Part shown: piece by piece, positions 25,856-54,964 of the stretch
Layout of the letters: each line of letters begins with the position of its first letter
How positions within the stretch are numbered: position 1 is the first letter of the stretch
DNA from: Synechococcus sp. BO 8801
GTDB lineage: Bacteria; Cyanobacteriota; Cyanobacteriia; PCC-6307; Cyanobiaceae
Length of the DNA stretch: 64,000 nt
NCBI RefSeq assembly: GCF_002252675.1
Contig: NZ_NQKY01000012.1
Location: 1 to 64,000 of the forward strand
Direction of reading: 5' to 3'
Program-made: the position numbers and the translations under genes
Notes under the pieces: generated by a model
What the model saw: the letters and a program-made list of their open reading frames with translations, nothing else
Told to the model about the DNA's origin: nothing
The model's database searches: none

Positions 25856-25859
25856 CCCC

Positions 25860-30650: not shown

Positions 30651-30651
30651 C

Positions 30652-32360: not shown

Positions 32361-32490
32361 ACTAGATCACTCTAACTTGCGACATACTACCAAACCATAC
32401 CCTCTCGCGCAAAGCAACCATCAGTACATTAAACCGCCCACTTAATTCGGCAAATCAGCCTAACAAGGTTGGTGCCGGTCTCAGTGGGGC

Positions 32491-32575: not shown

Positions 32576-32613
32576 CTGAGGGCAGGACAGATCTAAATCT
32601 AGTTGTATTCTGC

Positions 32614-33497: not shown

Positions 33498-33569
33498 TTA
33501 CGATTTGCCTGGGGCTGATGTGAATCAGGGCTGTTGAATCTGTGTAAAGCACAAGAAGCGCTACAAAGC

Positions 33570-33656
33570 GCCTAACGCTCAAGATCAATGGTTGGCCGGA
33601 TTACATGGGAATAATCCAAAAGTTCTATGCCCGACCGCTGGATCTTGATGTTGGAC
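33570..33656 (-). repeat. attC site 2
   Basis: 87 bases. Minus strand: GTCCAAC (33650-33656) then ATCAAGATC, central spacer, TGATCTTGA then GCGTTAGGC (box 33570-33576). The inner nine-base arms TCAAGATCA / TGATCTTGA are complementary. Lies about 75 bases past the stop of the nuclease-like gene. Confidence 0.88.
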
Positions 33657-33729
33657 GGCACGATAAGCGTATGGACAGTTATAGGCGGAACGGAAGCTGC
33701 TATGAATATCGATCTAAGTCCCAATGCAT

Positions 33730-34875
33730 TCATTGAAGAGTTCCTCTATGATTCGGAGTCGTAGGCAGCTGAATTTCCAAAAGCTGAGGCGTCCGAAGAT
33801 GTTGAGCCGCATACGGATTAGGCAGCCACTGAATGATTTCTGGGACATGCATGAGCAGGACGCCGCTTAGGTATTGAGCCCATTCTTTTTCGAATAGAGC
33901 GCCGAAATCCTGCTTATAGCACCGAGAGTTAGGCCCATAGTCCCAATCATCCATGAGCCGCCTCCAAGGACCTGAAAGTGCAGCAAGCAAGTCTTCCGGG
34001 TAGGAAGCACGTTTCTCGGCATAATACTTAGTTTGCATCTCAGGAGGAGCCAAGTAGCAGCAACGAGAACCAGTCAAAGCCGAATGAGCAGTGAGTGGGT
34101 CAAGCTCTGGTTCTCTATTGTCATAGGCTACGATAAACGGGATCGCCTGCTTTTCAGGAGGAAGTTTCCGCTGTTTGCTGGCTTTATGCTCCAGCTCACG
34201 CAGAAGCTTCAATTTGTGTTTCTCAGTCCGGACGCAGTGAAAAGCTGTTACGCCTCCCGAATGGTAGCCCTGTTGAGTAGGCGAGGGTTCGTACTCAAAC
34301 CGAGTTCCATCGATTAGGATTGATCCCCTGTCCAACGGACTGAGATCCTTCAAGTGCTCAATGAATTTGCTTGCAATCGTTCTTGCCTGTTCTTCTGCTT
34401 TGTTCCGCTCCTCAGCTGTGACCCCTGGAATACTCAGGTCATCTGCAAGATAGACAGTAGTCCGAAAGCATAGATTATTCTCTGTTAGTCCTTCCTGAAT
34501 TAGGCTCGACATATCGACACCTCCCGGCGACCCGGACGCTACTTCAATGAGAATCTCGCCGAAGTTTGTGGCAGCAAGTAGGTCTGGGGTGTAGGTTCCG
34601 TTACGACCGAATTCTTCGTCGGGAAGCATCCTGACTGAACATCCTAGGCGAGAAAAAATGTTTGCAATACGGAGCTCGGAGAGCAATGAAATAAACTTGG
34701 ATCCGCTTATTGGTTGCGCCAATTTCTCCGTTCCAAGGACACCTAAGGTTTCGGCCGCGGACAGGAGTAACTCTGCAGATTCAAACACAGTCGGATATTT
34801 GATCTCGGTATGCAGCTTCTGCAACTGCTGTGGAAAATCTGCAAAGAGCAGGTCAAGGATCGGCGTGTTTGGCAT
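33730..34875 (-). CDS. Cassette-encoded protein with possible PD-(D/E)XK nuclease core
   Basis: 381 residues, no membrane segment. Near residues 67-113, FISLLSELRIANIFSRLGCSVRMLPDEEFGRNGTYTPDLLAATNFGEILIEVAS has the restriction-endonuclease fold layout: an early Glu, then PD, 10 residues, then E-V. The usual final Lys is replaced by Ala, so activity is uncertain. The C-terminal two thirds are not recognised. Composition is AT-richer than flanking core genes. Starts about 55 bases after attC 3. Confidence 0.6.
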   Translation of the reverse strand: MPNTPILDLLFADFPQQLQKLHTEIKYPTVFESAELLLSAAETLGVLGTEKLAQPISGSKFISLLSELRIANIFSRLGCSVRMLPDEEFGRNGTYTPDLLAATNFGEILIEVASGSPGGVDMSSLIQEGLTENNLCFRTTVYLADDLSIPGVTAEERNKAEEQARTIASKFIEHLKDLSPLDRGSILIDGTRFEYEPSPTQQGYHSGGVTAFHCVRTEKHKLKLLRELEHKASKQRKLPPEKQAIPFIVAYDNREPELDPLTAHSALTGSRCCYLAPPEMQTKYYAEKRASYPEDLLAALSGPWRRLMDDWDYGPNSRCYKQDFGALFEKEWAQYLSGVLLMHVPEIIQWLPNPYAAQHLRTPQLLEIQLPTTPNHRGTLQ

Positions 34876-34930
34876 ACTTGAGTGTCATATCTAGATAATC
34901 TTTGGCTTGCAGATAAAGCCCTACAAGGCC

Positions 34931-35026
34931 GCCCAACGCTTGCGTTCAGCTGCAGCCGCATCAAACAAGAGAGCGCGAAGCGCGCCCATAATAGCGCGGT
35001 GGTCAGACTGCAACGCTTTGTTGGAG
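34931..35026 (-). repeat. attC site 3
   Basis: 96 bases, the longest. Minus strand: CTCCAAC (35020-35026), AAAGCGTTGCAG, a GCGC-rich centre, GCAGCTGAACGCAAGC, and GTTGGGC (34931-34937). Arms GCGTT / AACGC and GCAG / CTGC pair. Confidence 0.82.
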
Positions 35027-35038
35027 TTCACGTGCAGT

Positions 35039-35551
35039 CTACTTTCGTGGCAAGCCAACATGCTCTGGGTGCTTTCGGAGTTCCTGCCATGCCCACGGCT
35101 GCAAATTGCAGTCAAATGCTGTTGTGCCAGGATGGCCGATGTTCGATGCCCAGTACAGGATTTTCTTTGCAACTAGACCCCCAACCACACCGTTGCTGTA
35201 CGGTTGAGGGAGAGTCGTAGTGTTCGCGTTCAAGTATGCCGCGAGCACCTTCTGCTCTGGCGGGCTCAAAACCTTAAGCTTCTTCCTGTGCTGGCGCACG
35301 TTCCATTGATCGAGCAAGACCGGGCTCACCAACTTAGTAGCGCGGGCGCCAACGGCACTCACGAATATTGACATGCTCACGAGAAACGTTCCGCCAACCC
35401 ACACTCGATGTGTGGAGAGCAAAGAGACGATGCCTAGGGCGCTCTGAAAGGCTGGTGGAGCAAACAAGGCCGTGCCAGATGCGATCGCGAGTCCCAAGAA
35501 CACGTACGGTGCGGCCTTAAGCACCGATAGCAACTTTTCCACGTCGATCAT
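35039..35551 (-). CDS. SieB-like superinfection exclusion protein
   Basis: 170 residues. Two N-terminal membrane helices (about 13-35 and 50-70) precede a cytosolic domain with LKVLSPPEQKVLAAYL and the block NGVVGGLVAKKILYWASNIGHPGTTAFDCNLQPWAWQELRKHPE. This matches my recollection of the SieB family (LTPEEK...; DGVVAGLV.KGILYRAS; F.IN.WAW.YL..HPE). SieB of phage P22 blocks lytic growth of other phages at the membrane. Here it would be a cell-borne anti-phage cassette. The stop lies 12 bases from the attC box. Confidence 0.75.
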   Translation of the reverse strand: MIDVEKLLSVLKAAPYVFLGLAIASGTALFAPPAFQSALGIVSLLSTHRVWVGGTFLVSMSIFVSAVGARATKLVSPVLLDQWNVRQHRKKLKVLSPPEQKVLAAYLNANTTTLPQPYSNGVVGGLVAKKILYWASNIGHPGTTAFDCNLQPWAWQELRKHPEHVGLPRK

Positions 35552-35577
35552 TGATACTGCCTAGATGGTTGAGTGAC

Positions 35578-35666
35578 GTCTAACGCTTGCCATCGCCAGC
35601 CCGCGAGCCTCATCAATGGAGTAAAGATCATCTGCATTGCGGGTCTGGTGTGTGGCAATGTTAGAT
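35578..35666 (-). repeat. attC site 4
   Basis: 89 bases. Minus strand: ATCTAAC (35660-35666) holds the TAA stop of the trypsin-like gene, then ATTGCCA...GACCCGC, a central loop, GCGGGC...TGGCAAGC and GTTAGAC (35578-35584). Arms TTGCCA / TGGCAA and CCCGC / GCGGG are perfectly complementary. The clearest attC in the array. Confidence 0.92.
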
Positions 35667-36491
35667 CGCAGGGCGCGGAAATAGCGTCTGAATCTTCCCA
35701 AGGATGTGCTCAATCCGAGTTGCCACAAGAACTGGAGACTCCTCCCCAGCCAACCAAATCATGCCACAGACCCGTGCATACTCAGGTTGCCACTCAACAC
35801 CATTTGCATAACAAGCTATACGTTTTGTATCCCAGAGTAGACTCCCGCTGAGGCCACGAGGACTGCATACTTCAATCATCTCACCATTTGCCTCACGCTT
35901 TGCCTCGCCAGGAAAGTGAATCAGTTCGTGGAATTCGTGATTGTATCTGCTCGGCACCATATCAAGAGATTCAGCTACGGCTTGAGTTAGAAATGGATAA
36001 CCCGGCACTTCAAGTTCATTTCCCCAAGAGTAAAGGGTTCTATTCTCATTTGCCGGATCCCATCTTGATAGAGTAGTTCCTGGAAATCCCAGGAAGAAGA
36101 GAAGCTCATGATTTATCGGATGATATCTGTCGTCGAACATATCTAGGCAGAGACAAACTTTTTCATCTGAAAGAATCTCTAGGTTGATGGGCGCACATGC
36201 AAAGTCGATTGGCTCAGGCCACGAATGAAATGGCTTCTCAACAACTACATATTCTTGATTCTGCCTGGGCAAATGACAAATAAGGCGCGCTTCTGAATTG
36301 TTAACAACGTGATCATTCGTCAAAAGATATGCACCTAGTGAATCCCCTAGCCACGTGTACGAGCCAGTTCCTCCAGCCCACCCGTAATCAGGGCTATCAG
36401 ATCGCGATATAGGCGTAACATACTGTGTTACAAAATGCGCCATCCTTTCCTTTGTCTCTTGCGCAATCTGATCAAGTTCTGCTTGGTTCAT
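35661..36491 (-). CDS. Cassette-encoded trypsin-like serine protease
   Basis: 276 residues. The chymotrypsin triad is visible: LLTNDHVVNN (His near residue 60), PIDFACAPI (Asp near 95) and CSPRGLSGSLLWD (Ser near 214, GxSG). No signal peptide or transmembrane helix, so it is probably cytosolic, unlike Deg/Htr proteases, and it lacks a PDZ domain. Trypsin-like modules occur in several anti-phage systems as effectors, but here it is a single gene. Its stop codon lies inside the attC box. Confidence 0.75.
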   Translation of the reverse strand: MNQAELDQIAQETKERMAHFVTQYVTPISRSDSPDYGWAGGTGSYTWLGDSLGAYLLTNDHVVNNSEARLICHLPRQNQEYVVVEKPFHSWPEPIDFACAPINLEILSDEKVCLCLDMFDDRYHPINHELLFFLGFPGTTLSRWDPANENRTLYSWGNELEVPGYPFLTQAVAESLDMVPSRYNHEFHELIHFPGEAKREANGEMIEVCSPRGLSGSLLWDTKRIACYANGVEWQPEYARVCGMIWLAGEESPVLVATRIEHILGKIQTLFPRPAI

Positions 36492-36507
36492 GAGTCTTTT
36501 GGTGTCG

Positions 36508-36596
36508 ATCTAACACTTGCGATCACCTGGCCGCAGAAAGTGAAGATTCCTCCCGCACTCCATGGGTGGCGGCTCAGGTGAATCGCTATGTTAGAC
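36508..36596 (-). repeat. attC site 5
   Basis: 89 bases. Minus strand: GTCTAAC (36590-36596) holds the TAA stop of the PD-(D/E)XK-like gene. Arms GCGATTCACCTGAGCCGC and GCGGCCAGGTGATCGC pair with a few extrahelical bases, typical of attC, and it closes with GTTAGAT (36508-36514). Confidence 0.92.
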
Positions 36597-37463
36597 CTCA
36601 CCCAACCCAAGGCGATCAATTACATGAATGCCGAGGGTGGCCTGTAGTGGCCGAAGCTCGCCTGGCATGTCTCCCCCCAATGCCAAGATAACTCTGCAAT
36701 CCCTTATTGACTGCTCTGCCTTCTCTTCTGCTTCAATGACTGCCAAATACTTTATACATTGAAAGAGTCCTCTGACGACATCGTATTGAGGAGCGTTCAC
36801 AGGCTTGACCTCGACGGCAATTCGATAGCTTAAGGAAGCGAAGTGAACATCAACTCGATCACCAGAGTAGAGGTCTACTTCGGTATCTCCGAGGCCTAAA
36901 GATGGCTCTATTCCAACAAGGGATGGATTTAATGAGATTGCTAGTTTCAAGGCCAAATGCTGTTCACCTTCCCCTTGATCGCGCATTTGAGTGATCTGAC
37001 TTGGGTCGACAGGAATCAGTTCTGCTGCTGTTACTGGCTTCAATCCATAGCGGGCTAACACATCGTTCCACCTAGCAAACGTAAACACCTCTGCGAGCAT
37101 TCCATTGACAATCAGCTCCTTATTAATTCGACTGGCCTTCTTGAATTCTGAAGCATCTGGCGCAAACCACGAGATTCCCTCACCTGGGAGGCCGCTCCCT
37201 TTGTTGACGACAAGAGCCTGAATTGGAGGGACCTTAATGCCCCATTCCTGTCCTAGCTCTAGCATTGAGTTCCCAATCGCTCCAAGGACGTAATTCAGAT
37301 TCCGCGGATTGGGCATTCCCAGCTCTCTGGATAACGCGCCATACTCGATTGTCTGACTTGCCTTGGCTTGCCTTACAAGGATTGGCAGAGCTGCTCTAGC
37401 ACGCTGTTGATATAGCTTGTCCCCAACCAAGCCTTCGATCGATGCTTCGCCTGTTTCTGCCAT
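36591..37463 (-). CDS. Cassette-encoded protein with C-terminal PD-(D/E)XK nuclease-like domain
   Basis: 290 residues from ATG 37463, which has a good AGGAG site seven bases upstream. The N-terminal half has a winged-helix-like ALPILVRQAKASQTIEYGALSRELGMPNPRNLNYVLGAIGNSMLELG and a conserved-looking PPIQALVVNKGSGLPGEGI. The C-terminal half has DVDLYSG/DRVDVHFASLSYRIAVEVKP, a PD-(D/E)XK pattern (Asp, then E-V-K near residues 215-219). It resembles small restriction-like enzymes. The stop is inside attC 5. Confidence 0.68.
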   Translation of the reverse strand: MAETGEASIEGLVGDKLYQQRARAALPILVRQAKASQTIEYGALSRELGMPNPRNLNYVLGAIGNSMLELGQEWGIKVPPIQALVVNKGSGLPGEGISWFAPDASEFKKASRINKELIVNGMLAEVFTFARWNDVLARYGLKPVTAAELIPVDPSQITQMRDQGEGEQHLALKLAISLNPSLVGIEPSLGLGDTEVDLYSGDRVDVHFASLSYRIAVEVKPVNAPQYDVVRGLFQCIKYLAVIEAEEKAEQSIRDCRVILALGGDMPGELRPLQATLGIHVIDRLGLGEV

Positions 37464-37486
37464 TGGATGCTCCTGCTTTGTTGTAG

Positions 37487-37578
37487 GTCTAACGCTGCCC
37501 CTGAGTGGCAGGCAAGAAGCCAGGGGTGGCACTGCAGATAGTCGGCGGGGGCCTGTCCACTCAAGGGGCTGGTTAGAC
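37487..37578 (-). repeat. attC site 6
   Basis: 92 bases. Minus strand: GTCTAAC (37572-37578) holds the TAA stop of the DUF262 gene. Arms GCCCCTTGAGTGGACAGGC and GCCTGCCACTCAGGGGC pair nearly throughout, and it closes with GTTAGAC (37487-37493). Strong site. Confidence 0.93.
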
Positions 37579-38922
37579 CCCTTTGCCACGCTTCCAGTTA
37601 CACGTACGGTGAGCCAAGCGAGCATTCACAGGAACCGTCTCACCGCCCTTCCAGTATTGAAGATTGTGGTCAAGCGCGGCATCATTTAGCATAACAATCT
37701 TTTGGCCGCATATCGAACACGAATTATCGGCTTCAAACATCTCTTCTTTCAAGCTTCGGCTAAAGAGACGAACTGCATCATTTGCCCTTTCGCCAGACAC
37801 CGCATCTTTGAGTCGGGCTTGCCAAGTTTCAAACGCATACTCTATACGAGAATAGTCACCTGTGGCCGCCGTGACCGACGCGACCCATCTTTCATCGGTT
37901 TCGATCAAGTCGATGTAGGCCTCATAAATGCTGTCCGCCGATCTAGTGATTATGCCAATATCGTAGTCGTTAAACGACACTGATATAACTTGGAAGATAG
38001 AGGCATTAATGCGAGAAGCCCACTCTCCACCGCCTTTTTCGTAGACGCGCCGAAGGCGAAAGGCCTTATTCCCAAACACCGTCAGACAAGCACGCATCGC
38101 ATGCTTAAACGCCCCTCTAAACTCCTTCGTCTTTTCTGCTGTGGGATTCCGATAGGTAGTAAAAAACTCGTTGAAAAATGCCTTTAATCCCTTCTTCGCT
38201 TTTGTGTAGGTCATCTGATAGAACGCTAAATAGCGGAGAATCAGAGTACGATCTGCCATCCTCTTATCAAGACCGCTCTGCCCCGCTGAGTTCTTAAACT
38301 CTTCGAGCTGGCAAAGCTCCTTAATCAAGTCATTAAGACCACCTCGATAGAGACAATTACGAATCTCCATATCGTTGAGCGCCATGCCTCCAGTGTTGAG
38401 GCGCTCAAAGATGATAAACATCAAATCTTTTGGAGCTGTCTGGCTGAGCTCAAAAGTTCTGAGGGTCGCATCCTCAAGTTTTGACTGAAGCTCGGTATCA
38501 AGCTCTGAAAATTGCTTCCCTACCAGTTCCTTCCTGATCTCCAAGCCAGTTAATGCATATCGATTCTCGAAGTAGTCAAATATGGATGTAAGGCGCTGGA
38601 GTCCATCAATCACTTCGTACTTGCCATCGTCGTTGACCGCCAAATAAATGACTGGTACAGGTAGGTCAATTAAAAATGATTCAACAAGCCTTGAGGCTCT
38701 CTTGCGATCCCATACATATTTCCGTTGCCACTCAGGGTCTACAATGATTCTGCCTTTGGTATACCAACGATGGAACTCGGATAGGCTCCGATCATTCTTA
38801 TCAAGCTTGATGGTTGGCTTTGTCCCCTCTAGCGTCAGATCTCCTTCGTCAGAAGAGTCGATGACTTCATCCGTGGTGACTCCATCTGGCTGGATTGTTT
38901 CTGAGTCGTCCATCATGCTCAT
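37573..38922 (-). CDS. DUF262-HNH nuclease (GmrSD/type IV restriction-like)
   Basis: 449 residues. After an acidic leader the DUF262 domain shows RSLSEFHRWYTKGRIIVDPEWQRKYVWD and the ATP/GTP-site motif YEVIDGLQRLTSIF near residue 100. The C-terminus has an HNH nuclease with zinc cysteines: CSICGQKIVMLNDAALDHNLQYWKGG...ARLAHRTCNWKRG near 405-445. This single-chain layout is like fused GmrSD enzymes, which cut modified phage DNA. First visible cassette of the array on its strand; its stop lies in attC 6. Confidence 0.85.
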   Translation of the reverse strand: MSMMDDSETIQPDGVTTDEVIDSSDEGDLTLEGTKPTIKLDKNDRSLSEFHRWYTKGRIIVDPEWQRKYVWDRKRASRLVESFLIDLPVPVIYLAVNDDGKYEVIDGLQRLTSIFDYFENRYALTGLEIRKELVGKQFSELDTELQSKLEDATLRTFELSQTAPKDLMFIIFERLNTGGMALNDMEIRNCLYRGGLNDLIKELCQLEEFKNSAGQSGLDKRMADRTLILRYLAFYQMTYTKAKKGLKAFFNEFFTTYRNPTAEKTKEFRGAFKHAMRACLTVFGNKAFRLRRVYEKGGGEWASRINASIFQVISVSFNDYDIGIITRSADSIYEAYIDLIETDERWVASVTAATGDYSRIEYAFETWQARLKDAVSGERANDAVRLFSRSLKEEMFEADNSCSICGQKIVMLNDAALDHNLQYWKGGETVPVNARLAHRTCNWKRGKGV

Positions 38923-38957
38923 AGTTTTAGGCCAGTCTAGTCAGGTCTGGGGCGTGG

Positions 38958-38964
38958 GTCTAAC
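38958..38964 (-). repeat. Single attC/attI-type core box before the first cassette
   Basis: GTTAGAC on the minus strand, 36 bases before the ATG of the DUF262 gene, is the recombination core box. No complementary arm is visible beyond it. Instead, two copies of TTCCGAGAACCAC (38979-38991 and 39010-39022) follow. This could be the remains of attI or of an upstream attC. Confidence 0.55.
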
Positions 38965-39204
38965 CAGTCATTGGACGGTTCCGAGAACCACTCCTCTCAT
39001 GTTCTCCCTTTCCGAGAACCACCCGACGCGCGGCAGGGAGGATTGCCTGAAATACCGATGCTGCATAGCCTTTCGAGAGCAGCTTCCGCTTTCTAGCAAT
39101 GGTTGACGGGTCCGATAACCAGCTGTAGCCAGCGATACCCAAGTCTTACCAACCTCCCCACCTTGAGCAGCTCAAGTCCCGCAAAGAGATCCACCCCAAG
39201 CCGT
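38965..39204. other. Non-coding left edge of the cassette array
   Basis: About 240 bases between the last core box and the MFS stop. It has two TTCCGAGAACCAC direct repeats and no convincing gene. Composition shifts from the AT-richer array to GC-rich core DNA at about 39180. Confidence 0.5.
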
Positions 39205-43923: not shown

Positions 43924-44052
43924 GGCCCTCCTGCCGGCCCCGTCATGATGGCCGGCCCCCCTGGGTTTGTCTGCCGAAGCCCACGGTCCTGCGGTTGACA
44001 GCGGCCGGTGCTGCCACGAGCATCGGCAGATGGAGGACGCCGGATCGGACGC

Positions 44053-45177
44053 ATGACCCCCGGCGCCACCACCGTCCGCAGCCTGGTGCTCCACGCCACC
44101 GAAACCGGCAACGGCGCAGAACCACGGCAGACCAACCAGCGCTACAGGGATCCCCGGGTCGCCCTGGAAGAACGGCATCTCCAGCCCCTCCATCCCGGCG
44201 CGTTGCGGTTGCAGATGCTGCGGGTCGGCATCTGCGGCACCGACCTCCACATGACCCAGCGGGATCCGCTGGGGTTCGTGCGCAGTTCCGCCCCCGCCTC
44301 GATTCCCCTGCAGGGCCGGGTGCTGGGCCATGAGGGAATCGGCCGGGTGATCGCCACCGGCTCCGACGTCAGCCGCTTCCGGTTGGGCGACATCGTGGCG
44401 CCGGAGTCCGTGCTCAGCTGCGGGGCCTGCCGCTCCTGCCGCTCCGGCGCCTTCAACCAGTGCCTGGACGCCCGGCTGCTGGGCATGGAGAAGGACGGGC
44501 TGTTCGCCGCGATCGCCGATGTGCCGGCCCGATCGGCCGTGGCCATCGGCCGGCTGGCCGAGAGCGAGCGGGGCCTGCAGATGGCCGCCTGTCTGGAGCC
44601 GGCTGGGGTGGCCCTGCTGGCCTGCCGGAAGACCCAGATGGCACCGGGCGAGCGGGTGCTGGTCTTCGGCGCCGGACCGATCGGCCTGCTGGTCGCCATG
44701 ATGGCGCGCCGGCTCCACGGCGCCGCGTTGGTGGCCGTGGTCGAGCCCTCCACCTACCGCAGGGACTTCGCCGCGGCCTGGGCCGACCAGGTGGCGGAAT
44801 CGGCGGAGGCGCTGGAGATCCCGGACGGCGGCTGGGACGTGGTGGTGGAAGCCTCCGGCGTGCTCGCCAACGTTGATGCGGTGTTCCGCCAGATCGCCCC
44901 GGGCGGCCGGGTGGCCCTGCTGGGCAGGGGCGGCCAGGCCCTGCGGATCGGGGCGGTCGACCACATGATCACCAACGCCATCAGCGTCATGGGGCTGCGC
45001 GGCCACCTCGGCGGGGTCTACGAGCGGCTGATCGACCTGTGCCTCTCCGGGGTCCTGCCGCTGGATCGGATCGTCAGCAGCACCATCGAGGGGCTGGAGC
45101 GGCTGCGATCCGTGCTCGAGCACCCGGACGACCTCGCCGGCGGCGACTGCAAGATCGTCGTCAAGCTCGCCGATTGA
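44053..45177 (+). CDS. Zinc-dependent alcohol/sugar dehydrogenase (MDR family)
   Basis: 374 residues from ATG 44053. The catalytic zinc site is VGICGTDLH with GHEG, and the structural zinc site is CGACRSCRSGAFNQC near residues 123-137. The NAD site is VLVFGAGPIGLLVAMMA. It resembles threonine or polyol dehydrogenases. It begins a plus-strand unit with a radical SAM protein and a giant transporter. The stop lies in the first of three 16-bp tandem repeats. Confidence 0.85.
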   Translation: MTPGATTVRSLVLHATETGNGAEPRQTNQRYRDPRVALEERHLQPLHPGALRLQMLRVGICGTDLHMTQRDPLGFVRSSAPASIPLQGRVLGHEGIGRVIATGSDVSRFRLGDIVAPESVLSCGACRSCRSGAFNQCLDARLLGMEKDGLFAAIADVPARSAVAIGRLAESERGLQMAACLEPAGVALLACRKTQMAPGERVLVFGAGPIGLLVAMMARRLHGAALVAVVEPSTYRRDFAAAWADQVAESAEALEIPDGGWDVVVEASGVLANVDAVFRQIAPGGRVALLGRGGQALRIGAVDHMITNAISVMGLRGHLGGVYERLIDLCLSGVLPLDRIVSSTIEGLERLRSVLEHPDDLAGGDCKIVVKLAD

Positions 45178-45211
45178 GCAGCTCGCCGATTGACAAGCCC
45201 GCCGATTGACC
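45164..45211 (+). repeat. Triple 16-bp tandem repeat
   Basis: Three consecutive copies close to AGC(T/C)CGCCGATTGA(G/C)(C/A), with one to three differences. The first copy holds the stop codon of the dehydrogenase gene. It may be a slip-duplication. Confidence 0.85.
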
Positions 45212-45240
45212 GTCCCCCGAACAGCATTTTCTTCCCCCGC

Positions 45241-46437
45241 ATGGCCAATCCCTTTCCCCTGGACGGCGAAAAGTTCCTCAAGATCCGCATCTCCGTGCGG
45301 ATGCTGAAGTGCAACTTCAGCTGCAACTACTGCGTGGCGGCGGCGGGCCAGAGCCAGGTGAGCGGCATCGACTACAGCCGGGGCACGAAGCGCAACATGT
45401 GGGGCACCGAGCAGGGCCGGGGCATGGCGCGCACGGCCATCGAATGGGCCGCCTCCCTGCCCTATCGCATCGGCGTTCGCTACGACGTGCACGGGGAGCC
45501 CTTCCTCAACGCCGACGTGATCGAGGATCTGATCTGGCTCACCGCCCAGCCGAATGTGGCCTTCGTGGAGGTGCAGACCAATGCCTCCCTGTTCAGGAAG
45601 CGGCTGCCGGAACTGGCCGGCCTCATCGAGCCCTCCAGGCTCAAACTCTTCTGCACCTTCCATCACACCGAGATCGCCCTCGACGACTTCCTCGGCAACG
45701 TCACCCTGGCCGCCGACCTGGGCTTCGACGTGGTGGTGAACACCCTGCTCGCCACCGACAACGTGGCGGTCATCCGCGACGCCCTGACGCGCTGCGCCGA
45801 GCGGGCGATCCCCACCTCCGCGGATCTGAAGTTCCCCGGCTTCGATGTGCCCCCCACCGAGGCGATGAGCGACGCCGTCGATGTGGACAAGCGGGCCCGC
45901 CATTTCCTCAGTGCGGACCCGATCGAGGAGCTGCTGGCGGCCGGTGAGCCCGGCCTGGAGGTGTTCCGCACCATGGCCGACAGCGGACCGCTGGGCCGGG
46001 AGATCCGCTTCCTGGCCGCCCTGCTGGTGGGCCTCTACGGCGGCAAGGGGCGTCTCTGTTCCGCCGGCCATGACTACCTGATCGTCGACAACTGGGGCGA
46101 TGTCTTCCCCTGCACCAGCTACGCCGACACCCGCACGGGCCGGCTTGGCTCCGTGCTGGACCCCGGCTTCGTTCCGGCCCTGCGGGAGGAGGTCTATGCC
46201 CCCTGCCAGTACGCCGAGACCTGCCACCAGAAGGAGGAGTACGGCAACCTGCGCCTGCTGCGCGAGCACCGCGATCTCCAGGCGATGAGCCTCAACTGTG
46301 TCTGCGGCGAGGGCAAGCAGGTGGACCCCGAAACCCTCTTCGACAGCCGCATGGCCCTGCTGGAGACCGCCCGCCACAACCCCCAGACCAGCCGCGTCGG
46401 ACGACCCGCCGCCGCCGCCGCCGTCCCGGCCGGCTGA
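45241..46437 (+). CDS. Radical SAM protein with C-terminal SPASM-like cysteines
   Basis: 398 residues from ATG 45241. The [4Fe-4S] SAM motif is CNFSCNYC near residues 23-30. The C-terminus has a second cluster: CSAGHDYLIVDNWGDVFPCTSY, CQYAETC and NCVCGEGK, as in SPASM or Twitch domains that hold extra iron-sulfur clusters. Such enzymes modify peptides or anaerobically mature enzymes. It lies 4 bases before the transporter GTG. Substrate unknown; a disrupted small ORF lies at 52.5 kb. Confidence 0.85.
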   Translation: MANPFPLDGEKFLKIRISVRMLKCNFSCNYCVAAAGQSQVSGIDYSRGTKRNMWGTEQGRGMARTAIEWAASLPYRIGVRYDVHGEPFLNADVIEDLIWLTAQPNVAFVEVQTNASLFRKRLPELAGLIEPSRLKLFCTFHHTEIALDDFLGNVTLAADLGFDVVVNTLLATDNVAVIRDALTRCAERAIPTSADLKFPGFDVPPTEAMSDAVDVDKRARHFLSADPIEELLAAGEPGLEVFRTMADSGPLGREIRFLAALLVGLYGGKGRLCSAGHDYLIVDNWGDVFPCTSYADTRTGRLGSVLDPGFVPALREEVYAPCQYAETCHQKEEYGNLRLLREHRDLQAMSLNCVCGEGKQVDPETLFDSRMALLETARHNPQTSRVGRPAAAAAVPAG

Positions 46438-46440
46438 GCG

Positions 46441-49137
46441 GTGCTACCCAGGGTCTGGATCTTCGCGCTGCTGGCCTCCCTGGGGGGCCTGCTCTTCGGC
46501 TTCAACGCCACGACCCTCGGGCTGGTGGCCGCGACGGCCGCCAGCGACTGGTCGTTGACCCTCGGCTCCCAGGTGCTGCTGAGCGGCGCCTTCTTCCTCG
46601 GCGCCATCCTCGGGGCCGTGTTCATGGGCCGCTTCGGGGATGGCCTGAGCCGCCGCGATGTGATCACCACCAGCGCGGCCTGCTACGCCTTCTTCGGCTT
46701 TGCCTGCGCCATCTCCGAGCGCTTCGAGGAGCTGGTGGTGGCCCGCTTCTTCCTCGGGATCATCGTCGGGGTCACCTCCCTGGCGATCCCGCTCTACATC
46801 GCCGAGATCTCCCCGGCCCGGCACCGGGGCGCCCTGGTGTCCCTCAACCAGCTGAGCATCACCCTGGGGATCGTGCTCGCCTTCGTCATCGAGACGAGGC
46901 TGGTGGACGGCCAGGACATTTCCCAGCTGTACACGATCAGCGGCATCCTTGCCGTGGGCGTCAGCGCCGGCGCGATCATCCTGCCGGATTCCCCCGCCTG
47001 GCTGATCAAGCAGGGGGATGGGGATGCCGCCCGCGCCGTGCTGAAGCTGATCCACGGCCCCAACGTGGAGCCGGAGGTGGCCGCCATCGAGGAGAGCCTG
47101 ACGGGCAACCATCCGAATGTGTGGGTGGCGCTGCTGGAGCCCTCGAACCGAAAACTGCTGGGGATCGGCATCCTGCTGTTCGCCATCCAGCAGCTGAGCG
47201 GCATCAACTTCGTGCTGCAGCTGGCGGGCGACGGCTCCCTGTTCCAGGGCTTCGATCTGGGCTGGGATCCGGTGATCGTGGTCGGCCTGGTGAATCTGTT
47301 CAGCACGCTGCTGTTCGTGCTGCTCGTCGATCGCCTCGGCCGCCGGCCCCTGCTGCTGGCGGGCCTGGCGGGCCTGGCCCTCTGCCTGGCCGGGCTGATT
47401 CTCGACGCCACCACCTCCCTGTTTCCGCCGCTGGCGGTGGCCGTCAGCCCCTTCCTGATCCTGGGTTACGTGTTCTTCTTCGCCATCAGCCTGGGGCCCC
47501 TGCCCTGGCTGTTCGTGGCCGAGATGTATCCGCTGCCGGTGCGGGGCCTCTCGATGAGCATCCCGATCACCGTCAACTGGCTGATCAATGCCGTCATGGT
47601 GGTCGCCGCCCTGTCGGTCGACTCCCCGGCCGACACCCTGGCGGTCTACGGGGTGTCGCTGGCCACGGCCCTGGTGGCGCTGCCGCTGTGCTTCTTCCTC
47701 TACCCGGAGACCCGGCGGCTGCGCTTCTCCCAGATCCGCCGCACCTGGCACCGCTCGGGGACCGCCGATGAGCGCAATGAGATCGCCGCCACCCTGGCCA
47801 CCACCGTGGTGACCATCGGCGGCATCTTCTTCGGCTACAACCTGACGATCATCGCCGGGGCCCTGCTGCAGATCCGCACGGCCTTCGCCCTCACCCCCTT
47901 CAGCAGCGGGCTGGTGGTGAGCTCGGTGCTGGTGGGGGCGATCCTGGGGTCCTTCATCAGCGGCCATCTGGCGGGGGCCTTCGGCCGGCGCTACATGCTG
48001 ATGACGACGACCGTGGTGCTCATCGTCGGCACCGCCGTCTCCGGCCTCGCCGACTCGTTGCCGATCCTGGTGCTGGGTCGCCTCGTCACCGGCCTGGCCA
48101 CCGGGGTGACCGCCAGCATCGTGCCGCTGTACATCACCGAAATCGCCCCGGCCCCGATCCGGGGCCGGCTGAACAACATTCAGAATCTGGCGGTGGGCAT
48201 CGGCTCCCTCACCGCCTACGGCACCAGCACCCTGCTGATGGCCGTGCCGGAGGGATGGCGGGCGATGCTCTACCTGGGTTCCGTGCCGGCGCTGTTGCTG
48301 GGGATCGGCGCCCTGTTCCTGCCGGAATCGCCGCGCTGGCTGATCACCCAGTCCCGCTTCAGCACGGCGGAGCGGATGCTGCAGAGGCTCTGCGTCGGCA
48401 ACCCCAGGGAGGAGGTGGCCCAGCTCAGGGCCAGCGTCGAGCACACCTCGGCGGGCCCGGGGGGGATGCCCCTGTTCTCGAAAACCATCCGGCCTCCCCT
48501 GCTGATCGGCCTGGCCCTGGTGTTCTTCCAGGAATGCACGGGCATCATCATCGTCACCTACTACAGCCCGACGATCTTTCAGGCCTGCGGCGTGAGCGAT
48601 CCCACCACCGCCATCCTGCTGACCACCATCGGGGTCGGTGGCTTCGGCCTGGCCATGTCCTCCCTCTCCTTCCTGCTGGTCGATCGGCTGGGGCGCCGCA
48701 CCCAGTTCCTGATCGGCATCCTCGGCATCCTCACCAGCTCGATCGGCTTCGGGCTGATCTTCGCCGTGCTGCCCCAGGGCACCCCTGCCGTTCAATATCT
48801 CGTCCTGATCTGTTTCATCCTCTTCGTTTGCTCCTTTTCCCTGAGCCTGGCCTCCGTCTGCGGCATGGTGGTGTCGGAGATCTTTCCCCAGGCGGTCAGG
48901 GATCGGGCCATCGGCTTCGTGATCGCCTTCCAGCTCCTCTGCGGCATGGCGGCGTCCTTCCTGTTCCCCATGCTCGCCGATGCCCTGGGACTGGCGGTGG
49001 TGTTCTTCGTCAATGCCGGCATCGCCGCCCTGGCCCTCCCCTTCTGGGCCTTCGTGATGCCGGAGACCCGGGGCCGGAGCCTCGAGGCCATCGAGCAGCA
49101 CTGGCTGGCGGGACAACCTCCCGCCGCCCTGCGCTGA
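46441..49137 (+). CDS. Tandem fusion of two sugar-porter MFS transporters
   Basis: 898 residues from a GTG start. Two full 12-helix sugar-porter units lie head to tail. The first (about 1-435) has GRFGDGLSRRD, PDSPAWL and DRLGRRPLLLAG. The second (about 440-898) has GHLAGAFGRRYML, PESPRWLI, DRLGRRTQFL and PETRGRSLEAIE. There is no stop or frameshift between. An about 24-helix single chain is rare. Substrate unknown; context is the dehydrogenase-radical SAM unit. Confidence 0.92.
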   Translation: MLPRVWIFALLASLGGLLFGFNATTLGLVAATAASDWSLTLGSQVLLSGAFFLGAILGAVFMGRFGDGLSRRDVITTSAACYAFFGFACAISERFEELVVARFFLGIIVGVTSLAIPLYIAEISPARHRGALVSLNQLSITLGIVLAFVIETRLVDGQDISQLYTISGILAVGVSAGAIILPDSPAWLIKQGDGDAARAVLKLIHGPNVEPEVAAIEESLTGNHPNVWVALLEPSNRKLLGIGILLFAIQQLSGINFVLQLAGDGSLFQGFDLGWDPVIVVGLVNLFSTLLFVLLVDRLGRRPLLLAGLAGLALCLAGLILDATTSLFPPLAVAVSPFLILGYVFFFAISLGPLPWLFVAEMYPLPVRGLSMSIPITVNWLINAVMVVAALSVDSPADTLAVYGVSLATALVALPLCFFLYPETRRLRFSQIRRTWHRSGTADERNEIAATLATTVVTIGGIFFGYNLTIIAGALLQIRTAFALTPFSSGLVVSSVLVGAILGSFISGHLAGAFGRRYMLMTTTVVLIVGTAVSGLADSLPILVLGRLVTGLATGVTASIVPLYITEIAPAPIRGRLNNIQNLAVGIGSLTAYGTSTLLMAVPEGWRAMLYLGSVPALLLGIGALFLPESPRWLITQSRFSTAERMLQRLCVGNPREEVAQLRASVEHTSAGPGGMPLFSKTIRPPLLIGLALVFFQECTGIIIVTYYSPTIFQACGVSDPTTAILLTTIGVGGFGLAMSSLSFLLVDRLGRRTQFLIGILGILTSSIGFGLIFAVLPQGTPAVQYLVLICFILFVCSFSLSLASVCGMVVSEIFPQAVRDRAIGFVIAFQLLCGMAASFLFPMLADALGLAVVFFVNAGIAALALPFWAFVMPETRGRSLEAIEQHWLAGQPPAALR

Positions 49138-49161
49138 CCCTGGGCCCGGCGGGGCCCTGAC

Positions 49162-52100
49162 TCAGGCGGCACCCACGCCGGCGGCCGCGATGGCGTCGGA
49201 GCAGACCTTGCCCAGGTAGGCCACCGGGAAGTCCGCGAACGCCTCGGCCCCAGGCCCCGCAGCCTCCGGGACCGGGGCGGGGCGGTACGCCTCCAGCACA
49301 TCGAGCAGCGACAGCGATCGCTGGGCCGCGGGCAGCCGGCGCAGGGCCGGCTCGATTCGCTCCAGCCACTCCCCGTAGCTGGCCGTCCGCTCCAGGGGGA
49401 AGCCCGCCGCCTCGATCCGCTCCACCAGGGCCTCCAGGGGAAAGGCGCCGTCGGCGGGGCCACCGAGGGTGAGTTGGTGGAAGCCCTCGGGCGCGCCATC
49501 CCCGAGGGCCACGATCGCCTGCGCCAGCTGGTCCACCGGCAGGCCGCTGGCCCGGAAGCCCGCCGCCTGGCCGGCTGCATCGGTGACGCAGAAGGCCGGG
49601 GGGGCCAGGCCCGTGAGCAGGAGGCTGTGGATCAGCCGCGAGAGAATGTCGTCCGGGTTGCATTCCCCGGCCAGGTGCCGATCGGGCAGCACCAGCCCCG
49701 ATCGCAGGAGGCGGATCGGCAGACCCGTGGCGGCGTGGGTGGAGCCCAGCAGCTGCTCACAGGCCCACTTGCTGGCGATGTAGCCGTTGGCATAGGAGCC
49801 ATCGAGACGGATGGGCTCCTTCAGCGGGGCCACGCCGATGGTGGAGACCATGGCGATCGACTTGCGCCGGTGCGTCAGCGCCAGACGCACCACCTCGGCG
49901 GTGCCGATGACATTGGGTCGGCGGAGGTGGCGGTAGTCCAGCCGGTGATTGACCAGGGCCGCGCAGTGGACGATGGCCTCGATGCCGTGGGCCAGCCGCT
50001 CGTAGGTTGCGGCGTCCAGCCCAAGCCGCGGCTCGCCGATGTCGCCGGCCACCACCTCCAGGTGCTGCTCCGCCAGCGTGCGCCAGCGCGCCGCCATGGC
50101 CGGCTCGAGGTGGGCGAAGCGGGCGTCGAGGCGCTCCCGGGCCGACTGGGTGCGGCTGGGCCGGACCAGACACACCAGCCGGCCGCCGCTGGTGGCGAGG
50201 CGCTCCAGCCAGGCCAGGGCGACGCGGCCGCCCAGAAACCCATTCGCCCCGGTGAGCAGCACCGAGCGGGTCGGCCCTGAAGACAGTGGCAATTGCGCCG
50301 CGGCCCGCAGGGTGGGCCCGTCGATGAACGCCTCCACCCGGAAGTCGGCGGCGACGAGCACGTCGGCGGCCGGCTCCCGGGCCGGGCCGGAGCCGGCGGC
50401 CCGGAGAATCCGCGCCCAGGCCGCGATCGTGCCGTCGGGCCCGAGGATCTGGCTGGCCTCGATGGCGACGCCGAACTCCGCTTCGATCCGCACCGACAGC
50501 TGAACGGCAGCGAGGGAGTCGCCGCCCAGATCGCGGAAGCAGCGATCCTGCAGGGAGGCCTGGTCGTGGACGCCGAGGGTGCTGCCCAGCAGCAGCCGCA
50601 GCCGCTCCTCCAGGCCCAGCGCGGCGCCGGGCCGGCGGAGGGTGGCCAGGGCCGCATCACCGAGACGGTCGTGGCTGTCATAAAGGGCGGCCAGGGCCGC
50701 CGCATACCGCTGGCGGATGGCGGGCCGGAGCGGCTTGCCCAGGGAGGACAGCAGGCCATTGGCATGGGAGAAGGGTTCGTCCGCCAGCAGGAGATCCCGG
50801 GGAATCTCGAAGCTTTTCAGGCCCTTCTCGCCGGCCAGCCGCACCATCTCCTCACGCACCAGGGCGATCAGCTCGGCGGCGTCGGCGGGGGGCCGGGGCC
50901 GCCGCGCCAGGGCCTCAGGGTCCGGCACCACGACCGCCAGCAGGTAGGAACGGCTGCTCTCGCCATGGACATGGATCTGGGTCACCGAGGCGCAACCATC
51001 GGCGAACAGCTGCTCCAGCGCACCGACGGCGACGTACTCCCCCTGCGACAGCTTGATGACGTTCCGGCGGCGGTCGATGAGGGCGATCTGGCCGGGGCCG
51101 CGCTCCTCGACCACATCCCCGGTGCAGCAGAAACCGTCGGCATCGAACAGGGCCGCCGTCGCCTCCGGGTTCCGGAAGTACTCGCGGATGCCGAAGCGCG
51201 TCTTCACGCACAGTTCGCCCCTTGGATAGGGGCGATCGGTGAGGAAGTAGCCCGACTCCGGCACATCCCGCAGCCGGTACGCGATGACGTTGGGCCGGTT
51301 GAGCCGGCCGTTCATGGCCAGGCCGCCGCTGGCCGTCTCGGTGCTGCTGTAGCCCTCGTGCACCGGCACCCCGAAGGTCTCCTCCATCAACGCCCGGATG
51401 CGGGGCGCGATCGGCGCCGAAGCCACAACGATGGATTGCAGCCGGTCGCCCAAGAAGACACGCAGGTCATCGGATGTAGTCGTTCGCAGGTGCTGGTCGA
51501 TCCACTCACAGAGGCGCGGAAACAGCACCAGCCCCGTCGGTCGGGCCAGGCGGATGTCCTCGAAGACGGTGGAGAGATCCGGCTTCAGGGTGAAGCAGGC
51601 CAGGCCACCGGAATTGAGGGCGGTGACCATCGAATCCCTGCCCATGATGTGGTGGAAGGGAGCGAGCACCACCGCCACCTTCGGGTCCGGACCGGAGACC
51701 TGGCGCCAGGTGTTGACCAGGGCCGCGGCCGAGATGCAGGCCCCCTTCGGCTGGCCGGTGCTGCCCGAGGTGTGGATGAGCAGGGCCATCGCCTCCGGGT
51801 CGACGGTGGCCGGGGGAGGGAGGTCGGCGGCGGCGTCCTGGCCGCGGACGATGAGATCCGGCAGGAGCACCAGGGGAACCGTCGACCCGGCCGCCCGGAG
51901 CGTTCGCTCGGCCTCCTCCACGAGGGTGCGCTCGGCCGTGATCCGGGTGTCGGCGTCGAAGACGATCAGCTGGCGGATGCAGGCGTGGCGCCGCACCAGA
52001 TCCACCATCGCGGGCAGCTGGGCGATGGACACGGCCAGCGCCGCTGGGGTGGTCCGCTCCAGGATCGCGTCGAACTCGGCGGCCGAATGGTGACCCGACA

Positions 52101-52443
52101 GGGGCATCGGCACGGCCCCGGTGTAGGCCAGGGCCAGGTCGATGACGGCGTAGTCGATGCTGGCGAAGCCGATGATCGCCACCCGCTCCCCGCGCCGGAT
52201 GACGCCATCGGGATCGCTGCGCCAGGCCGCGGCCAGGCAGCGGACCCGATCCCGCAGGGTTCGGTAGGTGATGGGGCGGAACTCGGCCAGGATCTGGCGG
52301 TGGGTGGTTCCCGTGGCGGGGTCGGCCGCAACGACATAGGCGCGCTCGGCCAGGGCGGGGCGCTCGGGATGGGCCGCCAGAACGGAGTCGATCAGGGCCC
52401 CGTAGGGCAGGGACGACGGCAGGGCAACGCTGGAATCACTCAC
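49162..52443 (-). CDS. Carboxylic acid reductase (A-T-R)
   Basis: 1093 residues from GTG 52443 (ATG 52491 would overlap the upstream ORF tail). The adenylation domain has LIHTSGSTGQPKGA, HEGYSSTETA and the late TGDVVEERGPGQIALIDRRRNVIKLSQGEYVAVGALE. The thiolation domain has DLGGDSLAAVQLS near residue 641, with the phosphopantetheine Ser. The C-terminal reductase has LLTGANGFLGG near 727. It would reduce a carboxylic acid to an aldehyde using ATP and NADPH. Convergent with the transporter gene; likely cotranscribed with the GT1 upstream. Confidence 0.9.
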   Translation of the reverse strand: MSDSSVALPSSLPYGALIDSVLAAHPERPALAERAYVVAADPATGTTHRQILAEFRPITYRTLRDRVRCLAAAWRSDPDGVIRRGERVAIIGFASIDYAVIDLALAYTGAVPMPLSGHHSAAEFDAILERTTPAALAVSIAQLPAMVDLVRRHACIRQLIVFDADTRITAERTLVEEAERTLRAAGSTVPLVLLPDLIVRGQDAAADLPPPATVDPEAMALLIHTSGSTGQPKGACISAAALVNTWRQVSGPDPKVAVVLAPFHHIMGRDSMVTALNSGGLACFTLKPDLSTVFEDIRLARPTGLVLFPRLCEWIDQHLRTTTSDDLRVFLGDRLQSIVVASAPIAPRIRALMEETFGVPVHEGYSSTETASGGLAMNGRLNRPNVIAYRLRDVPESGYFLTDRPYPRGELCVKTRFGIREYFRNPEATAALFDADGFCCTGDVVEERGPGQIALIDRRRNVIKLSQGEYVAVGALEQLFADGCASVTQIHVHGESSRSYLLAVVVPDPEALARRPRPPADAAELIALVREEMVRLAGEKGLKSFEIPRDLLLADEPFSHANGLLSSLGKPLRPAIRQRYAAALAALYDSHDRLGDAALATLRRPGAALGLEERLRLLLGSTLGVHDQASLQDRCFRDLGGDSLAAVQLSVRIEAEFGVAIEASQILGPDGTIAAWARILRAAGSGPAREPAADVLVAADFRVEAFIDGPTLRAAAQLPLSSGPTRSVLLTGANGFLGGRVALAWLERLATSGGRLVCLVRPSRTQSARERLDARFAHLEPAMAARWRTLAEQHLEVVAGDIGEPRLGLDAATYERLAHGIEAIVHCAALVNHRLDYRHLRRPNVIGTAEVVRLALTHRRKSIAMVSTIGVAPLKEPIRLDGSYANGYIASKWACEQLLGSTHAATGLPIRLLRSGLVLPDRHLAGECNPDDILSRLIHSLLLTGLAPPAFCVTDAAGQAAGFRASGLPVDQLAQAIVALGDGAPEGFHQLTLGGPADGAFPLEALVERIEAAGFPLERTASYGEWLERIEPALRRLPAAQRSLSLLDVLEAYRPAPVPEAAGPGAEAFADFPVAYLGKVCSDAIAAAGVGAA

Positions 52444-52456
52444 GACAATGCTGGCC

Positions 52457-52775
52457 TCAGGCCGCTGCCTTGTCGTACGCGAAGGCCGCAACGTTCGCGG
52501 GCAGCGTGATGGCGTGGATGCAGGTCTGGCAGAGGTCGTAACCGGGGATGGGACGGGGCCACGAAGTCCTCGGTGACACCTTCATTCTCCAGGTTGCCCG
52601 GGCGGGAGTTCATCGTCGGCAGCATCACACTGGAGGGGATCGTCCTGATCTGCTCGACATCCTCCAGTGACAGGCCGACGGCTGTGGTGAAGACACACAG
52701 GGGGGGACCCTTGCCGTGGGCATGCAGAATCATATTGAAGTTAGCACGACATAAAGATGCGAAAGAATCATTCAA
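52457..52775 (-). pseudogene. Disrupted small ORF between GT1 and CAR
   Basis: A TTG at 52775 overlaps the GT1 stop (TTGA). The frame reads MNDSFASLCRANFNMILHAHGKG, then LSLEDVEQIRTIPSSVMLPTMNSRPG and GVTEDFVAP, and then loses coding sense. Shifting one base near 52560 gives RPIPGYDLCQTCIHAITL and PANVAAFAYDKAAA with a stop at 52457, 14 bases before the CAR GTG. Short size and a Cys-containing tail could fit a small peptide precursor, but the family is not recognised. Confidence 0.5.
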
Positions 52776-54097
52776 GGCTCGTCGATGTCGTCGCCGGCCG
52801 TGAAGTCGGCCGTGATGCCTTCAATGAAGGCCACCGCCTGCTGCAGTCCACGCTCCCGTTCGATCTGTTCCTTCATGCGCCTGAGGCCCCGCTTCAGTCC
52901 CGGATCAGCCATGGCCTCGCCGATCAGCTGGCGCAGTCGGTCGGCCGTGATCGATCGGGCCTCCGCCGTGAGGGCCAGCTGATGGTGGGCCGCCCGGACG
53001 GCATTGCCCGGCTGATCCCTGGCGCAGGGAAGGATCACCATGGGAACGTCGTTCTGTACACATTCCATGATCGAATTGAGGCCGCCATGGTGAACCATCA
53101 CGGCCGCATGGCGCAGCAGCGTGAGCTGGGAAATCCAGGGCACCACCAGCAGGTTGGCGGATGAGGCGAACGCGCCGATGAGGGCTGGATCGCTGATGTG
53201 GAGCACGAAGAACCACTCCGGTGCCAGGGCGCTGGCTTCGGCCACGGCCGCAAAGAACCGCCGGGCCTGCGGGTAGGCCCCCGCGCTCGTACCCAGCGAG
53301 CAGAGGATGGTCGTCCGGCCGGAGGGATCGAACGGCAGCGGCGGCTCCTGGCGCTGGAAATCAATGAAATCACCGCAATGGCGCCGCTCCTTCGCCCGCG
53401 GGCCCGGCAGCTGGAAGGCGGCCGGACACAGCACAAGCTCGGGCAGGACCAGGTGCGGGCCGATCTCATCCTGGAGATAGGTGACGTTGCGCCGCAGGCG
53501 GATGCCGGACTGCCGGGCCACCCACAGAAAGGTGTCGGTGAGGTGGTGCATCCGCAGCGGGGCCCGGTAGGCACCGAATAGCCGGGAAGCCAGGCGCTTG
53601 GTGGCCAGATACCGCAGATGCATCAGCTTCCAGGCCAGGGAGATCCGCAGGGCCGAGAGCACGCCCCGGCCCGGCCTGAGGGAGGTCACCGCCGGGGGGA
53701 TGCGGGCGTTGTCGAAGAGGAACAGCGAGGTGGAGATCTGGATGGTCGGGAGGCCCAGCCGCAGGGCCCGCAGGGCCACGTACCAGAGGAACGAATCACA
53801 CAGCAGCAGGTCCGGCCGGGCCGAGAGCAGGCAGGCATCGAGGCTGCCGTCGACGATGGCGGTGGTGTAGCGGCGAAACAGGGCGTCCGCCGCCGGGGGC
53901 TCCTGCCCGTCGCCGGGCGTGGCAAAGAGATCGCCCGCGAATTCGATGAACGCGAAGCCCTGGCCCTCCACCAGTTGCCTCACCCGTGGAAGCCCGAGAT
54001 AGGTCACCCGGTGGCCCCGGGACACCAGGGCCCTGGCCAGCCGGAACGTCCCCAGGTGATGGCCCGCCTCGCCATGCATGGAGAACAGGATCTTCAC
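52772..54097 (-). CDS. Glycosyltransferase family 1 (UGT/MGT-like)
   Basis: 441 residues. N-terminus MKILFSMHGEAGHHLGTFRLARALVSRGHRVTYLGLP. The C-terminal donor site is VMVHHGGLNSIMECVQNDVPMVILP near residues 330-355, as in natural-product glycosyltransferases such as macrolide or zeaxanthin types. No signal peptide. It precedes the small ORF and CAR on one strand, consistent with glycosylation of a lipid or polyketide-like product. Confidence 0.85.
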   Translation of the reverse strand: MKILFSMHGEAGHHLGTFRLARALVSRGHRVTYLGLPRVRQLVEGQGFAFIEFAGDLFATPGDGQEPPAADALFRRYTTAIVDGSLDACLLSARPDLLLCDSFLWYVALRALRLGLPTIQISTSLFLFDNARIPPAVTSLRPGRGVLSALRISLAWKLMHLRYLATKRLASRLFGAYRAPLRMHHLTDTFLWVARQSGIRLRRNVTYLQDEIGPHLVLPELVLCPAAFQLPGPRAKERRHCGDFIDFQRQEPPLPFDPSGRTTILCSLGTSAGAYPQARRFFAAVAEASALAPEWFFVLHISDPALIGAFASSANLLVVPWISQLTLLRHAAVMVHHGGLNSIMECVQNDVPMVILPCARDQPGNAVRAAHHQLALTAEARSITADRLRQLIGEAMADPGLKRGLRRMKEQIERERGLQQAVAFIEGITADFTAGDDIDEP

Positions 54098-54112
54098 GCC
54101 GTTGTCACGGCC

Positions 54113-54964
54113 TCAATCGACCGGCCGGCAGCCTTCGAACCACATGACGTGCCGGGCCGGGTCGTAGTCCTTGTACTGACCCGTCAGCTGGATGCCCTGG
54201 CCGGTCCGCAGGGAGAGGGCATAGGCGCCCTGGCCCTTGGCGGCCAGGCAGCTGATCTGGGTCAGGAAGCGGAACTTGCCGAACCTGATGGCCAGATCGT
54301 TGGTGGAATTGGGAATGTCGTAGGCGATGCGATAGGCACCGCCGTCCTTGGCCACATGGGCCACCCGACCCTTGATCGTGAAGGTCTTGCCCTGGTAGCG
54401 GGAAGGAATCGACGCGGCGTTGGTGTCGGCTTCCTGGGAGATCTGCTGCGACAGCACCAGGGCATCGATCACGACAGGGCCGGCCGTTGACACCGCCCCG
54501 GCACTCCGCTCCGCCGCCGCGATGCCTTCAGCGCCACCTTTGACGGCGTTCAACATGGCGCAGAGTTCGGTGCGCGCCCCACCGGCGCCCGCCAGCATGC
54601 CGGCCGGGAGCTTCGCTTCCAGCTTCACCCGGGCAGCCGCCTGCTCGGCCTGGGCGGTGGCGATGATCGGGAACGGCCGGGCGGCGCCCGATCGCGGCTG
54701 CTCGAGCAGCATGCTGCCGTCGTCCGCCTCCTCGCTGAGGATGTCGTAGCCCCGGGCGGCCGCGATGCCGCGCAGCTGGCGAATCGCCACCGGCACGGTC
54801 AACGCATCGACCGTGACTTCGGCGCTGAACCGCGTCCCGGAAAGGGGGTTCCCCTTCTGCGCGAAGCTCTCTTCGCAGCTGCCGGCCCGGGCCGCCGAAG
54901 GCAAGGCCAGGGCCAGCGCCAAACCGCCCAGGGGAACCACGAATCGAAGGGCTGGAAGGAACAA
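54113..54964 (-). CDS. Secreted protein with C-terminal OB-fold-like domain
   Basis: 283 residues. A signal peptide (MFLPALRFVVPLGGLALALALPSAARA) is followed by a Cys-containing mixed domain. The C-terminal part SRYQGKTFTIKGRVAHVAKDGGAYRIAYD resembles tRNA_anti-like OB folds. Periplasmic or lipoprotein-like; function unknown. Confidence 0.65.
   Translation of the reverse strand: MFLPALRFVVPLGGLALALALPSAARAGSCEESFAQKGNPLSGTRFSAEVTVDALTVPVAIRQLRGIAAARGYDILSEEADDGSMLLEQPRSGAARPFPIIATAQAEQAAARVKLEAKLPAGMLAGAGGARTELCAMLNAVKGGAEGIAAAERSAGAVSTAGPVVIDALVLSQQISQEADTNAASIPSRYQGKTFTIKGRVAHVAKDGGAYRIAYDIPNSTNDLAIRFGKFRFLTQISCLAAKGQGAYALSLRTGQGIQLTGQYKDYDPARHVMWFEGCRPVD

Follow-up and report, generated by a model that had tools for sequence, protein, structure and literature searches.

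The window, by which we mean the whole 64,000-nucleotide stretch of DNA analysed here, belongs to a 3.27-Mb genome, to which Cyanobium and Aphanothece are the closest named relatives, and it contains a single gene for a double sugar porter, set within a small accessory block (Table 1).

Table 1. Features of the fused sugar-porter locus (window coordinates)
Feature	Position	Strand	Remarks
Accessory block, about 10.1 kb, five genes (dehydrogenase to glycosyltransferase)	43975..54113	.	Empty sites in genomes G022 and G025
Zinc-type dehydrogenase; first gene of putative operon	44008..45177	+	Nearest NCBIfam model IolM, far below cut-off
Radical SAM-like protein	45190..46437	+	CxxxCxxC; NCBIfam matches under cut-off
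Fused double sugar-porter gene, 898 aa	46441..49137	+	Two Sugar_tr domains; fusion repeated in five further genomes
Half 1, sugar-porter unit, residues 1-440 (our cut)	46441..47760	+	
Linker, residues 421-455, between hydrophobic peaks 12 and 13; net charge +3	47701..47805	+	Indel-free in six genomes
Half 2, sugar-porter unit, residues 441-898 (our cut)	47761..49134	+	
Carboxylic acid reductase-like gene	49162..52491	-	AMP-binding, PP-binding, NAD_binding_4; faces fused porter
UGT/MGT-like glycosyltransferase	52772..54097	-	Common to the 5 of 60 genomes with the fused porter

The porter frame starts with a GTG codon at 46441 and runs for 898 codons to a stop ending at 49137, with no stop inside. 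The Pfam model PF00083 matched it twice, each time over model positions 2-452 of 452 (263.5 bits for half 1 and 338 bits for half 2; cut-off 22.3), and TIGR00879 (sugar porter) scored 518 bits on the whole protein, in two stretches, against a cut-off of 237.8. By these cut-offs both halves are members of the sugar porter family, and the sequence-only reading was right in proposing one 898-residue chain that holds two complete sugar porters, with no stop at the junction. Its further statement, that both halves keep all of the family's signatures, holds for half 2, in which the motifs have their usual forms, but half 1 deviates in three of them: the loop that follows helix 2 reads SRR and not GRR, PESPRW is replaced by PDSPAW, and PETRR lacks the subsequent GRSLE. 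The protein departs from the single 12-helix unit of its family in having two units and 24 hydrophobic peaks, with a basic 35-residue stretch between peaks 12 and 13 (Kyte-Doolittle scan, 19-residue span; the threshold of 1.1 and the spacing were our choice). In the topology of the major facilitator superfamily (MFS), a half 1 of 12 helices would end on the cytoplasmic side, where half 2 would also start, so that no additional helix is needed at the junction. An AlphaFold2 model, built on an alignment of five close sequences, was not usable (mean pLDDT 34.1, pTM 0.23).

Whole-length relatives of the fused porter were found in 5 of 60 genomes, the window's own included; the other four (G004, G007, G012 and G017) belong to the same genus, of which 36 further genomes were covered. 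When named contigs were scanned, the gene was located in Cyanobium sp. N.Huapi 1H5 (98% identity), Aphanothece cf. minutissima CCALA 015 (89%), an Aphanothece saxicola MAG (89%) and Cyanobium sp. Morenito 9A2 (81%). Pooled, the two scans gave five distinct relatives of Cyanobium/Aphanothece type, with identities of 81-98%. All six frames are free of stops, and the junction region is free of gaps. A missed stop or frameshift at the junction, named beforehand as what would refute the fusion, is therefore excluded, as the five other genomes read through without indels. Consequently, we regard a sequencing or assembly artefact that joined two adjacent genes as having a negligible probability: no point in its favour was found, and besides the continuation through the same junction in five other genomes, GC by codon position over the whole frame (0.64, 0.47, 0.94) has the pattern of a gene. 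Pairwise dN/dS (Nei-Gojobori; 15 pairs from the six genomes) ranged from 0.11 to 0.39 in half 1 and from 0.11 to 0.33 in half 2; purifying selection acts on both halves.

The arrangement is rare, as had been proposed, among the cyanobacteria sampled, the scope of this statement being set by our searches of the phylum and the class. With PF00083 (E ≤1e-25; best five candidates per genome scored), at least 78 matches were obtained in 69 of 291 genomes of the class, and none of the other frames among the 78 matches listed exceeded 597 aa. When the whole protein was searched against 386 genomes of the phylum (E ≤1e-30; best two candidates per genome scored), 115 genomes gave a match, only the window's own covered both halves, and among the matches listed the two halves never occurred as an unfused pair. 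In the open-licence literature, no fused pair of sugar porters was found in titles and abstract openings, which does not prove its absence.

We compared both halves with single porters of the family at the positions that matter for coupling and sugar binding, taking Asp27 of XylE to be the proton-coupling position and presuming the roles in XylE of nine pocket residues (Q168, Q288, Q289, N294, Y298, N325, W392, W416, and N419). In each of the six species, both halves have Asn at the Asp27 position (Asn22 in half 1 and Asn467 in half 2); the distinct core single porters, eight of which come from one family of the window's phylum, have Asp there in 33 of 33 cases. (The core comprised 34 rows, two of which, L011 and L074, are one gene of genome G050; seven remote single-unit rows, with V, I, A or D at this position, were excluded from the core residue counts.) Judged by this residue, both halves fall outside the XylE-type proton-coupled symporters; GLUT uniporters, we assume, have Asn there. 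The pockets are unequal. Half 1 retains eight of the nine positions (Q168, Q288, Q289, N294, N325, W392, W416 and N419), Tyr298 being lost, with Gln260 in its place. Half 2 retains two in the window (Q288 and Y298), as well as Q415 (XylE numbering), and has N582, E698, I703, G736, G808, L832 and G835 (chain numbering) at the replaced positions. Over the six species, Q168 is replaced in half 2 by N or H, Q289 by E, N294 by I (N in Morenito 9A2), N325 by G, W392 by G, W416 by L or V, and N419 by G, and the variable positions include 168 (N/H), 294 (I/N) and 389 (S/P/A). Both halves retain R133, E153, R160, D337, E397 and R404, a pattern that a moving carrier should show. The unequal pockets, together with the shared loss of Asp, are the main new fact about this protein. 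The sequence-only reading had also suggested that the tandem may couple two substrates or a relay; because the pockets of the halves differ, two substrates are possible, and a coupling of the halves would be plausible.

The two halves share 29% identity by BLAST and 26% in a wider alignment, which is lower than the best identity of either to single porters (32-37%); this speaks against a recent internal duplication. A tree built from 54 rows placed each half in a fully supported clade of its own on a long stem (3.04 and 1.91), and the halves were not sisters, but one joint clade of both was not rejected (AU p 0.202), so that the gene represents either (i) a fusion of two different porters, or (ii) a very old duplication. 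Ten alignment columns, among them the Asn at XylE position 27, show no variation across the two halves and are uncommon among the 33 single porters. However, an individual single-porter row can have as many as 16 such columns in common with half 1, or 15 with half 2, and the ten common columns thus decide nothing about duplication.

The fused gene lies in constant company. The dehydrogenase, radical SAM and porter genes occur together in six of six genomes, and the carboxylic acid reductase-like gene is found near the porter, on its far side, in all six as well. The dehydrogenase scored 211.8 bits against the scyllo-inosose 3-dehydrogenase model IolM, below the equivalog threshold of 450. The radical SAM-like protein had no Pfam match at E 0.001 and was matched in none of the 241 other class genomes searched (E 1e-20). 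Its relatives were three Nocardia/Streptomyces plasmid records (31-33% identity, with about 77% of the protein covered), in which a second radical SAM gene and creatininase-family, arylsulfotransferase-family and glycosyltransferase genes form a conserved row; this row gave no substrate name. The stop of the radical SAM-like gene sits 3 nt ahead of the porter start, and the two frames (45190-49137) are in the same reading frame, split by one stop codon and one codon. In the reductase-like gene, PF00501, PF00550 and PF07993 follow in the order of adenylation, carrier and reductase domains, and the match to NF041592 (974.7 bits) is below the equivalog threshold of 1300. The glycosyltransferase follows the reductase-like gene in all five genomes read that far, the window included. 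In three of the six genomes (G004, Morenito 9A2 and A. saxicola) the porter is followed on the same strand by genes for a short-chain dehydrogenase and an acetolactate-synthase-type ThDP enzyme, neither of which had a match in the window or the N.Huapi locus, and in CCALA 015 luciferase-like, hydrolase and glycosyltransferase genes occupy that place on the opposite strand. Relatives of these last three genes form a cassette elsewhere in the window (24680-27784), with identities of 80% for the glycosyltransferase, 79% for the hydrolase and 89% for the luciferase-like gene; as the cassette stands between the porter and the reductase gene in CCALA 015, it has moved relative to the gene block.

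The porter, radical SAM, reductase and glycosyltransferase genes were found in an identical set of 5 of 60 genomes, in searches whose E limits differed, and the flanking aldo-keto reductase gene occurs in 24 of 60, including the block-less genome G022 (94% identity). We read the block-free flanks in four near relatives. In G022 and G025 the left flank stops at window position 43973-43975 and the right flank restarts at 54113-54121, with 11 and 16 bp between them; in G024 and G002 the block is absent along with the next gene (54113-54964). These empty sites indicate the gain or loss, in one piece, of about 10.1 kb carrying five genes, and they are stronger evidence than the co-occurrence, since the block may simply be shared among closely related genomes. 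The two block-end stretches examined had no direct repeat of at least 8 bp in common, and a single 9 bp inverted match between the ends was taken as chance. The enzymes of the block suggest a modified, perhaps glycosylated, small molecule.

Elsewhere in the window, positions 30000-39000 have about 50% GC within surroundings of 67-72%. This stretch carries a GmrSD/DUF262-type gene (37573-38922; PF03235 99 bits, PADLOC NsnA 307 bits), an ORC-CDC6-like ATPase gene (30735-32360) and several frames without any Pfam match, and looks like an acquired, possibly defence-related region.

Several known systems resemble the fused porter in part. The proton-coupled porters XylE and GalP have the family and its motifs in common with it, and half 1 has most of their pocket; they are, however, single units with Asp27, whereas the fused porter has Asn twice and a replaced pocket in half 2. 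The best PDB match of either half was GlcP of Staphylococcus epidermidis (4lds; 5.3e-40 for half 1 and 2e-66 for half 2), which is also a single unit and has Asp where the halves have Asn. The GLUTs (SLC2) that we aligned share the QQLSGIN and GPxPW motifs with half 1, but are single units from animals, and half 2 lacks these pocket motifs. In architecture the nearest parallel lies in another MFS family. Few MFS transporters with 24 segments are known, according to a published account (PMC2777183), and in NarK of Paracoccus, as described in excerpts of PMC5217062, NarK1 and NarK2 are fused into a 24-helix MFS protein whose parts are interdependent. Like the porter described here, NarK1-NarK2 consists of two complete 12-helix units of the same family joined by a linker, and its halves have different roles (PMC5217062, excerpts). 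Unlike in the porter, both halves of which lack the Asp, one NarK unit is described in those excerpts as a proton symporter, and the NarK1-NarK2 linker varies in length, whereas that of the porter is fixed in six genomes (PMC5217062). The nitrate/nitrite porter family was absent from the matches of the fused porter (two Pfam families and the best 25 of 26 NCBIfam families), which sugar-porter models led. A two-transporter MFS fusion is thus already known for nitrate and occurs here in another MFS family.

We propose, with moderate confidence, that the gene encodes two distinct sugar-porter units fused into one working protein, in which they are tethered, probably not coupled to protons and different in substrate, and that this protein serves the pathway of the gene block. 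Tethering would ensure that both units are made and placed together for that pathway. Both halves would be carriers without proton coupling (facilitators or exchangers), half 1 probably taking something that resembles a sugar or cyclitol, and half 2 another, modified substance that the pathway makes or uses. In favour of this explanation we counted the conservation of the fusion and the selection on both halves, the Asn at the Asp27 position, the state of the two pockets, the carrier residues retained in both halves, the constant company of the dehydrogenase, radical SAM and reductase-like genes, the shared 5 of 60 genomes, and the precedent of NarK1-NarK2. Three points count against this explanation: half 1 too has lost Tyr298; the variable pocket positions of half 2 could mean a relaxed pocket; and the co-occurrence is less telling if the five genomes with the block are close kin. 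By analogy with NarK1-NarK2, the halves may serve the entry of a substrate and the exit of a product. A covalent import/export device, with entry of a sugar-like precursor through half 1 and release of the modified product through the rebuilt pocket of half 2, both without proton coupling, is a more tentative and rather doubtful extension; a single chain would then act as an enforced two-carrier exchanger, a pairing for which we know of no earlier example among sugar porters.

The chief rival to two working carriers is that half 2 no longer transports and serves half 1, the sole transporter, as a stabiliser, regulator or sensor. Half 2 has indeed lost most sugar-binding positions, a few of which vary among the six species, and transporter-like sensors occur in the family (PMC6071613), the yeast glucose sensors Snf3 and Rgt2 being transporter-like proteins. 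Nevertheless, half 2 is under constraint as strong as that on half 1, scores higher against the family model, keeps the alternating-access motifs and has no signalling tail, and we consider it improbable that it has ceased to transport. Alternatively, two carriers may merely share a chain because the stop between adjacent porter genes was lost and the change became fixed, either by chance or because it equalised dosage; they would then lack functional coupling and might have a common class of substrate. The completeness of each half, with its own family motifs, is compatible with this, as is the fused NarK, in which changing two conserved linker residues left growth unaltered and the authors see a tether, apparently nothing more (PMC5217062, excerpts). 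The sharp difference between the pockets, the preservation of fusion and linker length in six genomes down to 81% identity, and the failure to see an unfused pair among the best two candidates from each of 386 phylum genomes argue against mere sharing of a chain, which we judge unlikely.

Since the nitrate fusion is already known, what is unexpected here is the family concerned, the inequality of the pockets and the absence of the coupling Asp from both halves rather than the architecture by itself. The fused porter marks a small accessory gene cluster in picocyanobacteria. Occurring in nature, conserved and covalently joined, the pair combines a near-canonical pocket with a rebuilt one, and as such offers a ready system in which to ask whether pairing benefits MFS carriers.
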